A stretch of 64,000 nt of DNA from Ensifer sesbaniae (lineage in GTDB: Bacteria; Pseudomonadota; Alphaproteobacteria; Rhizobiales; Rhizobiaceae): positions 1,116,001 to 1,180,000 of the forward strand of contig NZ_JABEKU010000001.1 of the NCBI RefSeq assembly GCF_013283665.1. Direction: 5' to 3'. Numbering within the stretch: the first letter of the stretch is position 1; each line of letters starts with the position of its first letter. The notes under the pieces were generated by a model. It did not search any database. It was not told the DNA's origin and was given only the letters and a program-made list of their open reading frames with translations. Below are positions 35,237-42,846 of this stretch, one piece after another. Position numbers and translations under genes: made by a program.

Positions 35237-35767
35237 TCAGGGCAGGGCGTCGTAGCCTTCGCCGAAGCCCTTGAGATCAACCGGGATGCCGATGCCTTCC
35301 TCGGGCGACTGGAAGACGATGAAGGTGGCCGTGGCGCCGGAGCGGAAGGTCTTCAGCAATTCGTCTTCGAGCACGACTTCTGCATAGCAGCCATCGGAGA
35401 AGCAGCGCACGAAGTAGGCGCGGCCGATATCCTTGCCGTCGACATTGAGGCCGAGGCCGTTCGGCAGCAGGACGCCGAGCGGGGCGAGCACGCGCAGGAT
35501 CTTCGCCTTGCGATCCGCCGTCTTCAAGACGACGACCGACAGGCCGACTTCCGGCCGGTCTTCGGCAATGACGTTCTGCATCAGCGCACACTGGTCGGTG
35601 GATGCGCCGGCCGGCTGATCGCAAACGATCGACCACGCGCCGTGATTGGACTTGACTGTGCCGGGGGTTCCGGCGGGCTGCTGGGCCAGGCTCTGAGCGG
35701 GGAGGGCGAGAACGGCAAGGCCGAAGGCGGCGAAGGCCGACAGTCGCGAAAAGAGGGGCAGGCCCAT
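35237..35767 (-). CDS. Invasion-associated locus B (IalB) family protein
   Basis: Periplasmic protein of 176 residues. The ATG at 35767 follows GAGG by 6 bases and opens a signal peptide (about 1-28, ending QSLAQQ). The mature part matches the IalB family: NHGAWSIVCD near the start, CALMQNVI, then the GKDIGRAYFVRCFSDGCYAEV block with a conserved cysteine pair and FQSPEEGIGIPVDLKGF at the end. IalB of Bartonella promotes erythrocyte invasion, but homologues are general in rhizobia and their role there is unknown. Confidence 0.92.
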   Translation of the reverse strand: MGLPLFSRLSAFAAFGLAVLALPAQSLAQQPAGTPGTVKSNHGAWSIVCDQPAGASTDQCALMQNVIAEDRPEVGLSVVVLKTADRKAKILRVLAPLGVLLPNGLGLNVDGKDIGRAYFVRCFSDGCYAEVVLEDELLKTFRSGATATFIVFQSPEEGIGIPVDLKGFGEGYDALP

Positions 35768-36131
35768 GTAAACCTCAAAACGTCGAATCATCAGGGCTAT
35801 TCTTGAAGCGCGCGGGAATAAATGAAAAGCCCCGCGGAGCACATTCCAGCGTCATATGGCGGAAATTGGACGGGTAAACGCCCCCATCCTGTGTGTTGCC
35901 GCGCCGGCCGCGTGCAATCGCCGCTATAGGCGCGGAAGAGGTCATATAAGTCGATTCGTGACGGCTTCTAAGGGGTGCCTGTGTGAAAAGATGCGTTTGT
36001 GCAAAAATGCCGCACGGGGTTGATTGGTCAGATGTTGCGGCATCGGACAAACTGTGGTTTGAAGCGCAGCAGTATCGCAGGGATTCTGCGTTCCGGTTTG
36101 ATCCTGATCAAGCGCATTGGGGAGACACATT
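35768..36131. other. Divergent intergenic region between ialB-like gene and ctaC
   Basis: 364 bases. It must hold the promoters of the ialB-like gene and of the cytochrome oxidase cluster. The only clear element is the FixK/FNR-type palindrome at 36098-36111. A related TTGAT sequence near 36020 lacks a proper second half. No small gene is supported. Confidence 0.5.
36098..36111. promoter_or_regulatory. FixK/FNR-type binding site before ctaC
   Basis: TTGATCCTGATCAA is an exact TTGAT-N4-ATCAA palindrome, the consensus for FixK, FnrN and Fnr oxygen-responsive regulators. It ends 20 bases before the ctaC start and 7 bases before its ribosome binding site (GGGGAG). So close to the gene, it would lie at or downstream of the transcription start and is expected to repress. 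Confidence 0.65.
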
Positions 36132-38722
<2,591 letters not shown>

Positions 38723-38820: not shown

Positions 38821-39777
38821 ATGACGGTCATCGACAATCACGAAGCAGTCGGCATGGAAGGCGTACCGCGTCTGTCCGAAGCCTCTGCGCGCGATTATTT
38901 CGAGCTTCTGAAGCCGCGTGTCATGTCCCTCGTCGTCTTCACGGCGCTCGCAGGCTTGGTACTCGCGCCCGGCCATATCAATCCCTTCATCGGTTTCATC
39001 GCCATTCTTTGCATCGCCGTCGGCGCAGGCGCGTCCGGTGCGCTGAACATGTGGTATGACGCCGATATCGATGCGGTCATGAGCCGTACCGCCAAGCGCC
39101 CGATCCCGGCAGGCAAGATCCTGCCGCAGGAAGCGCTGGCTTTCGGTCTGACGCTCTCTGCCTTTTCCGTGATCATCCTCGGGCTCGCCGTCAATTGGCT
39201 CGCAGCCGGGTTGCTCGCCTTCACGATCTTCTTCTACGCGGTCATCTACACGATGTGGCTGAAGCGCTCGACGCCGCAGAACATCGTCATCGGCGGTGCG
39301 GCCGGTGCTTTCCCGCCGATGATCGGCTGGGCTTGCGTCACCGGCGCCGTGTCGATCGAGAGCATCGTTCTCTTCCTTATCACCTTCCTTTGGACGCCGG
39401 CGCATTTCTGGGCGCTCGCGCTCTTCAAGATGGGCGACTACGGCGCCGTCGGCGTGCCGATGATGCCGAATGTCTGCGGTCAGGCGACCACCAAGAAGCA
39501 GATCGTCATCTATGCCGTGCTGACTGCGCTCATCGGTATCTGTCCCACCTTGCTCGGCTTCGCGAGCATCGGTTACGGCCTCGTGGCAACGGCACTCGGC
39601 CTCGGCTTCATCTGGTATTCGATCGGCGTGCTGCGCATGCCGGAAGCGGATGAGCGCATGCTGCCGGCCAAGAAGCTGTTCGCCTTCTCGATCATATATC
39701 TGTTCGTGATCTTTTCCGCCCTGATGGCGGATCACCTGATCGTCAATATCTGGCTGAATGCCGGGAGTATTGTCTGA
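38821..39777 (+). CDS. ctaB: Protoheme IX farnesyltransferase (heme O synthase)
   Basis: UbiA-family membrane prenyltransferase of 318 residues that adds a farnesyl group to heme b, giving heme o, the precursor of heme a. The prenyl-diphosphate/Mg motif is [19 protein letters not shown], and the second conserved block is [12 protein letters not shown]. The ATG at 38821 gives the normal length; the frame is open further upstream but overlaps ctaD. Its stop shares one base with the start of the small downstream gene. Confidence 0.96.
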
Positions 39778-39928: not shown

Positions 39929-40522
39929 ATGACGAATTCACTGGAAACCACGCCGAAGCAGCGCTCGAACCGAGTCGTCGTCGGCACCTGCCTCGCCTTC
40001 GTCGCCGGCATGGTCGGCATGGCCTATGCAGCCGTGCCGCTCTACGACATGTTCTGCCGCGTCACCGGCTATAACGGGACGACGCAGCGTGTCGAGCAGG
40101 CTTCCGATGTGATCCTGGACGAGAAGGTGAAGGTCACCTTCGACGCGAACACCTCGGGCGGTCTGCCCTGGGAGTTCAAGCCGGTCCAGCGCGACATCGA
40201 TATCCGCATCGGCGAAACGGTGCAGGTGATGTACCGGGCGAAGAACCTGTCGTCGAAGCCGACGACGGGCCAGGCGACCTTCAACGTCACGCCGATGCAG
40301 GCTGGTGCCTATTTCAACAAGGTACAGTGCTTCTGCTTCACCGAGACGACGCTGCAGCCGGGAGAGGAGATGGAGATGCCGGTGGTATTCTTCGTCGACC
40401 CGGACATCGTCAAGGCGGTGGAGACCAAGGACATCAAGACGTTGACGCTTTCCTACACCTTCTACCCGCGCGAACCGTCGAAACCGGTGGCGCAGGTGAA
40501 GACGGAAGAGAACAAACTTTGA
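39929..40522 (+). CDS. ctaG: Cytochrome c oxidase assembly protein CtaG/Cox11
   Basis: Copper chaperone of 197 residues that delivers copper to the CuB site of subunit I. One membrane helix (about 14-36) anchors a periplasmic immunoglobulin-like domain. The copper-binding motif is CFCF in [13 protein letters not shown] (about residue 131), with the third cysteine in [12 protein letters not shown] near the membrane. It starts 12 bases after the small CoxF-like gene. Confidence 0.95.
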
Positions 40523-40586: not shown

Positions 40587-41465
40587 ATGGCCGGTGCGCA
40601 TCAGAAGAATCACGACTACCACATCATCGACCCGAGCCCCTGGCCGTTGCTTGCCTCGATCGGCGCCTTCGTCATGGCGTTCGGCGGCATTTGCTACATG
40701 CGCTACCTCGCGGGCAGCTCGCTGAAGATCTTCGGCTTCGAGCTCGCCAACGTCTGGATCCTGCTCGCCGGTCTGATCATCGTTCTCTACACCATGTTCG
40801 GCTGGTGGTCGGACACGGTAAAGGAAGCGCACGAAGGTCACCACACCCGCGTCGTGTCGCTGCACCTGCGCTACGGCATGATCATGTTCATCGCTTCGGA
40901 AGTGATGTTCTTCGTCGCTTGGTTCTGGGCCTTCTTCGATGCGAGCCTTTTCGCCGGCGAAGCCATCCAGACCGCGCGTACAACCTTCACTGGAGGCGTC
41001 TGGCCGCCGAAGGGCATCGAAGTGCTCGACCCGTGGCATCTGCCGCTTTACAACACCGTCATCCTGCTGCTTTCGGGCACGACGGTCACCTGGGCGCACC
41101 ACGCGCTGCTGCACAACGACCGCAAGGGTCTCGTCTCCGGCCTGACGCTGACGGTCGCCCTCGGCGTGCTGTTCTCCTTCGTCCAGGGCTACGAATATGC
41201 CCACGCTCCGTTTGCCTTCAAGGACTCGATCTACGGCGCGACCTTCTTCATGGCGACCGGCTTCCACGGCTTCCACGTTCTGGTCGGCACGATCTTCCTG
41301 CTCGTCTGCCTGTTCCGTGCGCTCCGCGGCGACTTCACCCCGAAGCAGCACTTCGGCTTCGAAGCGGCGGCCTGGTACTGGCATTTCGTTGACGTCGTCT
41401 GGCTGTTCCTCTTCTTCTCCATCTACATCTGGGGTAGCTGGGGTGCACCGATCGCTCACGGCTAA
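40587..41465 (+). CDS. ctaE: Cytochrome c oxidase subunit III
   Basis: Membrane subunit of 292 residues with seven helices. The N-terminal HDYHIIDPSPWPLLAS, the central SEVMFFVAWFWAFFDASL with the conserved glutamate, and the C-terminal FEAAAWYWHFVDVVWLFLF are typical of subunit III. The ATG at 40587 is preferred to one at 40542 because it gives the conserved start MAGAHQKNHDYH. A strong terminator follows 24 bases after the stop. Confidence 0.97.
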   Translation: MAGAHQKNHDYHIIDPSPWPLLASIGAFVMAFGGICYMRYLAGSSLKIFGFELANVWILLAGLIIVLYTMFGWWSDTVKEAHEGHHTRVVSLHLRYGMIMFIASEVMFFVAWFWAFFDASLFAGEAIQTARTTFTGGVWPPKGIEVLDPWHLPLYNTVILLLSGTTVTWAHHALLHNDRKGLVSGLTLTVALGVLFSFVQGYEYAHAPFAFKDSIYGATFFMATGFHGFHVLVGTIFLLVCLFRALRGDFTPKQHFGFEAAAWYWHFVDVVWLFLFFSIYIWGSWGAPIAHG

Positions 41466-41730: not shown

Positions 41731-42110
41731 GCGAAGACAAAGCACATTTCCCGCCGGTGGATCCGGTAATGACCGGCATCAAGGGGCTTTGCCCGCGTTG
41801 CGGCCAGGGCAAGCTGTTCGACGGGTTCCTCAAGGTCAAGCCGGCCTGCACGAATTGTGACCTGGACTACCGCTTCGCCGATTCCGGCGACGGCCCGGTG
41901 GTCTTCGTCATCCTGATCGTCGGCTTTGTCGTCGTCGGTGCGGCGCTTTGGGCGGAGATCAACTTCAACCCGCCGCTCTGGCTGCATTTCCTGTTGTGGA
42001 TCCCGCTTGCGACCATCCTCAGCCTTGGGCTGACACGCATGCTCAAGGGCGTCTTGATCAACCTGCAGTACCGCAACAATGCGCGCTCGGGCGAAATCGA
42101 CCGTGGTTGA
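41727..42110 (+). CDS. DUF983 family membrane protein
   Basis: Protein of 127 residues. An N-terminal zinc-ribbon-like part has two CxxC pairs (GLCPRCGQGKLF and PACTNCDLDY), followed by two membrane helices (about 55-75 and 80-104). DUF983 genes are regularly found beside cytochrome oxidase genes in alphaproteobacteria, which suggests a role in oxidase assembly or membrane metal handling; no mechanism is established here. It starts with GTG overlapping the stop of the L,D-transpeptidase remnant, and its 3' end overlaps surf1. Confidence 0.85.
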   Translation: MSEDKAHFPPVDPVMTGIKGLCPRCGQGKLFDGFLKVKPACTNCDLDYRFADSGDGPVVFVILIVGFVVVGAALWAEINFNPPLWLHFLLWIPLATILSLGLTRMLKGVLINLQYRNNARSGEIDRG

Positions 42111-42846
42111 GCTCGAGAGCAGGAGGAAGCGGGGCCTTTTCGGACGTCTCGCTGCCTTTGTTTTGCTGGCCGTCGCCTTCGCCATCCTTGTCTCCCTCGG
42201 CACCTGGCAGATGCAGCGGCTGCACTGGAAGGAAGGCCTGCTCACGGCGATCCAGGAGCGCCGGTCGGCGCCTCCGGTGTCGATCGGCGAAATCGAGAAG
42301 ATGCTCGCAGACGGGATCGACATCGACTACCGCACCGTCACGGTTACGGGCACCTTCGATCACAGCAAGGAGCGGCACTTCTTCGCGACCTATGACAGCC
42401 GCACTGGCTACTACGTCTTCACGCCGTTGACTTTGGACGATGGCCGCTTCCTCTTCGTCAATCGTGGTTTTGTTCCCTTCGAACAGAAGGATTCGTCGAC
42501 CCGTCTTGCTGGCGAGCTTCCGGCCTTCGTCGGCATTCATGGCCTTGCACGATCGAAGCTTGACCAGAAGCCGTCGTCGCTCGTTCCGGAAAACGACCTC
42601 GCCAAGAACATCTTCTACTGGAAGGATCTCGACACGATGGCGTCGTCCGTCGGGCTTCCCGCCGACAAGGTGGTGCCGCTGTTTGTCGATGCCGATGCGA
42701 CGCCCAATCCCGGTGGCCTGCCGATCGGCGGCGTTACCCAGTTCGATCTGCCCAACAACCATCTCCAATACGCGCTGACCTGGTATGGATTGGCGGCAGC
42801 ATTGGTGCTGGTCAGCGGTCTCTACCTGGTGCGCCGCGGGCGATAG
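42079..42846 (+). CDS. SURF1 family cytochrome oxidase assembly protein
   Basis: Protein of 255 residues with two membrane helices at the ends (about 24-42 and 230-248) and a periplasmic domain between, the layout of SURF1/Shy1, which helps insert heme a into subunit I. Conserved pieces are SLGTWQMQRLHWKEGL after the first helix, GYYVFTPL, FLFVNRGFVP and NNHLQYALTWYGLA before the second. The ATG at 42079 overlaps the DUF983 gene by 32 bases; a GTG at 42103 would also work. Confidence 0.93.
   Translation: MRARAKSTVVELESRRKRGLFGRLAAFVLLAVAFAILVSLGTWQMQRLHWKEGLLTAIQERRSAPPVSIGEIEKMLADGIDIDYRTVTVTGTFDHSKERHFFATYDSRTGYYVFTPLTLDDGRFLFVNRGFVPFEQKDSSTRLAGELPAFVGIHGLARSKLDQKPSSLVPENDLAKNIFYWKDLDTMASSVGLPADKVVPLFVDADATPNPGGLPIGGVTQFDLPNNHLQYALTWYGLAAALVLVSGLYLVRRGR

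Follow-up and report, generated by a model that had tools for sequence, protein, structure and literature searches.

A conserved FNR/FixK-type palindrome upstream of ctaC in Ensifer sesbaniae and its predicted role in lowering the aa3 oxidase at low oxygen

What does an FNR/FixK-type palindrome do when it lies almost at the start codon of a gene for a low-affinity, aerobic cytochrome oxidase? The question is raised by a stretch of 64,000 nucleotides of the Ensifer sesbaniae genome (contig NZ_JABEKU010000001.1; hereafter the window), which harbours an aa3 oxidase cluster on its plus strand in the order ctaC-ctaD-ctaB-ctaG-ctaE-surf1. Here ctaC (36132..37013, GTG start) encodes subunit II of the aa3 cytochrome c oxidase (CoxB/CtaC; TIGR02866, 203 bits, above cut-off), ctaD (37034..38722) subunit I (TIGR02891, 729 bits, above cut-off), ctaB (38866..39777) heme o synthase (TIGR01473 and NF003349, both above cut-off) and ctaG (39929..40522) an oxidase assembly protein (NF003465, above cut-off). 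The subunit III gene ctaE (40590..41465) was assigned from matches to subunit III families that fall below the NCBIfam cut-off and from its place in the cluster, and the surf1-like oxidase biogenesis gene (42079..42846) from a match to NF050123 below cut-off. A divergent minus-strand gene (35237 to 35842 or 35767) was considered as the main target of the palindrome and rejected, since 255 or 330 nt, depending on which start it uses, separate it from the box.

Direct reading of the window places the palindrome, TTGATCCTGATCAA, at 36098..36111 (no strand assigned) as an exact TTGAT-N4-ATCAA. It is separated by 20 nt from the GTG of ctaC and by 7 nt from the Shine-Dalgarno sequence GGGGAG (36119..36124, plus strand), itself conserved in the alignment described below; the initial annotation of this DNA had given the same palindrome and the same two distances, and the coordinates agree. 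No other exact match to the motif occurs in the window, and in 100 dinucleotide-preserving shuffles the mean was 0.05 exact matches per window, with at least one match in 5 of the 100. When one mismatch was tolerated the window yielded three matches against 1.04 expected, such that among its matches only the exact site stands out. Across the genome (6.9 Mb in five contigs) we counted 18 exact boxes and none of the reversed motif. The site has the properties of an FNR/FixK anaerobox, namely a palindromic form, conserved half-sites around a free centre, and cognate regulator genes in the same genome.

The proposal in the initial annotation could be challenged by the absence of the palindrome from close relatives, and a check of other Ensifer genomes had been suggested there. 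We sought the box within 60 nt of the start codon in the best 80 of 583 ctaC loci (hereafter the named loci), and found it exact in 54, with one mismatch in three and in neither form in 23; two control motifs, at up to one mismatch, were found in none of the 80. All 19 Ensifer/Sinorhizobium loci among these best 80 of 583 carry the exact box, and conservation is strong in the named loci of Ensifer, Sinorhizobium, Pararhizobium and Shinella. Within the 54 exact boxes the half-sites are fixed while ten different four-base centres are seen (CCTG in 35 of them), as expected for a palindrome that binds a protein. At the level of sequence, the exact motif match and its conservation confirm the box upstream of ctaC as a real, conserved site of the FNR/FixK type.

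The box is nevertheless not a general rule upstream of ctaC, as 23 of the 80 named loci are without it. These are L039, L041 (Ferranicluibacter) and L049, L060 (Xaviernesmea), the Phyllobacterium-type rows, a Hoeflea metagenome-assembled genome (L077) and what we label the R. tropici group (L075, L079, L080, L082, L085-L087, L091 and L092). Within the R. tropici group two loci (L085 and L092) have a single base inserted in the centre of the box and the others (L075 and so on) have lost a half-site, while L089, of the same clade, has an intact box. No FnrN ortholog was found in the group, and cbb3 subunit I was missing, at the cut-off used, from nine of the ten genomes searched.

Three side observations belong to this survey. 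At locus L146 (genome G061) the ctaC box is altered symmetrically on both arms to TTGAC-N4-GTCAA, with the dyad retained. Pararhizobium antarcticum contig NZ_LSRP01000074.1 holds two ctaC loci (L044 and L045) about 105-110 kb apart in opposite orientation, the 2000 bases upstream of ctaC being identical between them; either the locus was duplicated recently or the assembly is at fault. A search of a plasmid collection with the promoter returned six records; four of the matches (H1-H4, CP090106.1 among them) are 3.5-3.7 Mb in size and carry ctaC, and look like chromosomes filed as plasmids.

We then turn to the promoter side of the box. The upstream region was aligned over 71 rows including the window, 61 of them distinct, with L062 (a partial match) and nine Phyllobacterium-type rows, L076 among them, left out. 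The resulting column table reveals conserved blocks at 36035-36040 (TTGCGG), 36049-36067 (AAACTGTGGTTTGAAGCGC) and 36072-36090 (GTATNGCAGGGATTCTGCG), followed by the box. The hexamer GATTCT (36082..36087, plus strand) is a candidate -10 element, on account of the conserved column block and its spacing to the box, and the conserved TTGAAG (36059..36064, plus strand), 17 nt from GATTCT, is a candidate -35 element; the spacing between the two is one base shorter in 25 of the 61 distinct rows. An alternative promoter block, TTGCGG ... AAACTGTGGTTTGAAGCGC (36035..36067, plus strand), is deeply conserved in two alignments and is partly kept also in the boxless Phyllobacterium-type rows. A consensus scan of 35850-36160 found no sigma-70 promoter; a standard sigma-70 promoter was set aside for want of a consensus match, and GATTCT is retained as a candidate from conservation and spacing. 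Further upstream of ctaC, two conserved blocks at 36004-36014 (AAAAATGCCGCA) and 36031-36041 (TGTTGCGGC) are in part inverted copies of each other and are retained even in some boxless relatives; our guess is that they are possibly a site for ActR/RegA or another activator.

The spacing on the two sides of the box differs in its constancy. From the end of the GATTCT-like hexamer to the box there are 10-11 nt in all 54 exact named loci, in agreement with the window (L055 has in addition a second GATTCT-like hexamer, 3 nt from the box), whereas between box and start codon the named loci have anything from 19 to 35 nt. At L071 and L090, for example, about 15 extra bases lie between box and start codon, with the hexamer spacing unchanged. 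The box is therefore in register with the promoter side, and not with the ribosome site. We also scored an even sample of the family, in which ctaC was present in 118 of 131 genomes and from which, after leaving out G000 and G065 (partial), 116 upstream regions were obtained. The hexamer-box spacing in this sample is 10 or 11 nt in 13 of 14 scorable exact rows and 8 nt in the remaining one, a GATTCT-like hexamer being missing in two of 16 exact-box rows. Among 33 family rows with a GGATTCTGC-like element, the best box has at least two mismatches in 15; the hexamer is thus kept in some boxless members of the family and is independent of the box.

With GATTCT as the -10 element, transcription would start near 36094 and the box would span about +5 to +18, a position from which the expected effect is repression. 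Other -10 readings are possible, with TATCGC at 36073 or CAAACT at 36048, which would place the start further upstream and the box in the leader; these fit repression too. E. coli FNR activates from near -41.5. For the present box to occupy that position the start would have to lie near 36146, inside ctaC, and no promoter reading that we found combines a box near -41 with a start retaining the ribosome site. This arithmetic upholds the argument of the initial annotation that the site can hardly activate. With a start inside ctaC as the price of activation, the box is best read as a site for repressing aa3 when oxygen is low. In this reading FnrN and/or FixK, both of the FNR class, would take the palindrome as their operator. 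Their active dimer would bind the box at low oxygen and block RNA polymerase at the ctaC promoter, such that the aa3 oxidase would be lowered at the same time as these regulators activate its cbb3 counterpart. We consider it probable that FnrN/FixK, bound to the box at low oxygen, occludes the ctaC promoter and thereby lowers aa3.

The remainder of the genome supplies the partners for such a switch. Protein P0002 is FnrN-like and carries the cysteine run CVACEARHGGVC, and P0003 is FixK-like; the closest NCBIfam models for P0002 and P0003 are FnrL and FixK, both matches falling below the curated cut-offs. In all, the genome encodes two FixK-like proteins without the cysteine run (L098 and L101) and one NnrR/Dnr-like protein (L096, assigned by eye). 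Eight of the 17 other exact boxes can be assigned to gene starts at distances of 34-102 nt, the starts being those chosen by us, and none of them lies as near to its start codon as the ctaC box does at 20 nt. One of the eight is 102 nt upstream of ccoN (fixN), the match of which is above cut-off, in the cbb3 operon; another lies between hemN and fnrN, 34 or 52 nt from the former and 161 nt from the latter; three precede usp genes (L004, L008 and L126) by 56, 64 and 94 nt; and the remaining assigned boxes are 62, 81 and 90 nt before gene starts. Among the FnrL targets named for Dinoroseobacter shibae there are likewise usp genes (PMC5398030). NifH is encoded on contig C5 of the E. sesbaniae genome, which makes a symbiotic setting possible. 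The initial annotation had envisaged FixK activation of cbb3 as the counterpart of the ctaC box; a cbb3 operon with its own box, FnrN and FixK-like proteins are all found here, as is nifH.

Does the box follow its presumed regulator across genomes? A strict pattern of box, GGGAG and GTGAA was found in 23 of 297 family genomes and in eight of 109 genera. In the even family sample, with the box sought within 200 nt and G102 (best match 48% identity) not counted as having FnrN, an exact box is present in 14 of 73 genomes with FnrN vs two of 43 without (p 0.048), and a box that is exact or has a single mismatch in 20 of 73 vs seven of 43 (p 0.26); the reversed motif, at up to one mismatch, is absent from all 116 upstream regions. 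Some of the one-mismatch boxes in this sample lie 73-176 nt upstream, and the exact box of G052 lies at 83 nt, and these may be chance matches. As 53 of the 73 FnrN-bearing family genomes have no box (up to one mismatch, 200 nt), the box belongs to one section of the family.

A sharper contrast is seen in a set hand-chosen from the 80 named loci, consisting of 26 boxless or one-mismatch loci and 24 of the 54 exact ones and reduced, by leaving out L088, to 49 genomes. An FnrN ortholog (at least 57% identity) is present in 20 of 27 boxed genomes (exact or one mismatch) and in one of 22 boxless genomes (L077; Fisher 5e-7), and cbb3 subunit I in 24 of 27 vs five of 22 (Fisher 5e-6). On the tree of the 49 genomes, however, the box changes independently only three times, too few for a sign test to reach significance; random pairings on the tree gave 1.8 changes in the same direction and 0.0 in the opposite direction for FnrN, and 1.5 and 0.2, respectively, for cbb3. 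After phylogenetic correction the association between box and FnrN is not significant. P0003-type FixK (at least 52% identity) is found in three of 27 boxed vs five of 22 boxless genomes, all five belonging to the R. tropici group, so losing every FixK does not account for the broken boxes there. The tree test and this distribution led us to reject co-occurrence as proof of regulation. In three boxed genomes (L019, L031 and L036) the searches for FnrN (E up to 1e-20) and for a P0003-like protein (E up to 1e-30) both gave no match; these genomes may use another member of the family or be incomplete drafts. Sinorhizobium meliloti (L051) has no FnrN ortholog by our threshold; it has a 36% match ending 0.4 kb before the fixN match, which we take to be its known FixK.

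Other explanations of the ctaC box have to be weighed against repression by FnrN/FixK. One of them overlaps with it and differs in effect size, namely that the regulators bind with little effect and the box is a minor trimmer, aa3 being mainly under other systems such as ActR/RegA. Such a role would suit a box that is missing in much of the family and that is preceded by more conserved blocks, and it sits less well with the strong conservation of the box in the four genera listed above; we regard it as rather doubtful. We think it unlikely that the box is mainly bound by an NO-responsive relative of the NnrR/Dnr type, in which case aa3 would be repressed by nitric oxide or denitrification and not by low oxygen itself. 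The genome does encode the NnrR/Dnr-like L096, and the NnrR consensus TTG-N8-CAAA may overlap that of FixK (PMC5596199), but in the same source the full TTGAT-N4-ATCAA is the FixK consensus. The boxes beside ccoN, hemN and fnrN in the E. sesbaniae genome share this latter form as well, which again argues against NnrR.

As FNR proteins are mostly activators, activation or fine-tuning of ctaC from an unrecognised start site also had to be considered. In another alphaproteobacterium a different regulator, RegA, is reported to have exerted an unexpectedly positive control on aa3 at low oxygen (PMC5435760). Activation from the present box would nonetheless call for the start at about 36146, past both the conserved ribosome site and the GTG, and would leave the locking of the box to the upstream hexamer unaccounted for; we hold it to be very improbable. 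Least credible to us is a post-transcriptional role, with the palindrome either folding as a hairpin in the ctaC transcript leader or being an unrelated conserved motif. While the box can pair into a stem of 7 bp when the leader fold is predicted, the segment 36060-36160 folds no better than its shuffles (z = +1.43; 188 of 200 folded at least as well), no Rfam match was obtained for 35750-36300 up to E = 1, and the letters of the half-sites are conserved beyond the needs of mere pairing. The fold statistics and the Rfam null make action at the RNA level unlikely, and on these two grounds a hairpin or riboswitch in the ctaC leader was rejected as a candidate.

Published work from other lineages includes observations that count against repression. 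In Bradyrhizobium diazoefficiens the levels of CoxA and CoxB are reported as constant under microoxia (PMC6515984), and in bean bacteroids of Rhizobium leguminosarum two genes called CtaC1 and CtaC2 are reported to be about sixfold up (PMC6421345). A cta mutant of Rhizobium etli is slightly impaired in growth when cultures are fully aerobic and shows wild-type growth at low oxygen (PMC4274787), a phenotype that fits an aerobic role of aa3. A literature search, confined largely to the main text of open papers, found no experiment on the ctaC box in Rhizobiaceae.

Returning to repression by FnrN/FixK, we tentatively postulate a broader scheme, for which the odds appear to us somewhat unfavourable: a clade of Rhizobiaceae may have wired its aa3 promoter into the FnrN/FixK switch via a promoter-locked operator, 10-11 nt after the -10 element, giving a reciprocal exchange of aa3 and cbb3 under a single set of regulators, and this operator may be undergoing stepwise loss in the R. 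tropici group, from the intact box of L089 through the single insertions of L085 and L092 to half-site decay in the others. If the repression reading is true, Ensifer, Sinorhizobium, Pararhizobium and Shinella would use one class of regulator both to switch on the high-affinity oxidase and to switch off the low-affinity one. Such a double switch would explain the respiratory hand-over as oxygen falls, in nodules or in soil. The prediction is a simple one tied to a single named site, for which relatives whose boxes are naturally broken offer the controls.

How does the ctaC box compare with known systems? The cta operon is among the new predicted FnrN/FixK targets in Rhizobiales listed by Tsoy et al. 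(2016), as is ctaCDBXGE in Caulobacterales (PMC4999443). The site prediction in that study is akin to ours; the word 'repress' is absent from its main text, and the sections covered here state neither in which direction the sites act nor anything on their geometry or the promoter. The interpretation offered in the initial annotation therefore stands as regards a conserved FNR/FixK-type box with no room for activation, but not in the novelty with which it was presented, as cta sites had been predicted in 2016. For Rhodobacter sphaeroides FnrL, direct repression of low-affinity oxidase operons was proposed from ChIP-chip and oxygen-dependent expression (Dufour et al. 2010, PMC2908626); repression opposite to cbb3 activation is the common element, while the organism belongs to Rhodobacterales and the promoter is a different one. 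In D. shibae FnrL is reported to activate the cbb3 and repress the aa3 oxidase (PMC5398030), the same outcome as predicted here, on the basis of mutant transcriptomes. In R. leguminosarum, anaeroboxes at -32 to -34 activate whereas one at -2 represses fnrN (PMC7888657); repression from a site near the start is alike in the two cases, although the fnrN example is one of autoregulation and does not concern an oxidase gene. Predicted cta sites in Rhizobiales and FnrL repression of a low-affinity oxidase in R. sphaeroides and D. shibae had thus been reported before; the present analysis contributes the exact Ensifer site, together with the spacing that locks it to the promoter, the range of relatives that share it and the series of decaying boxes.
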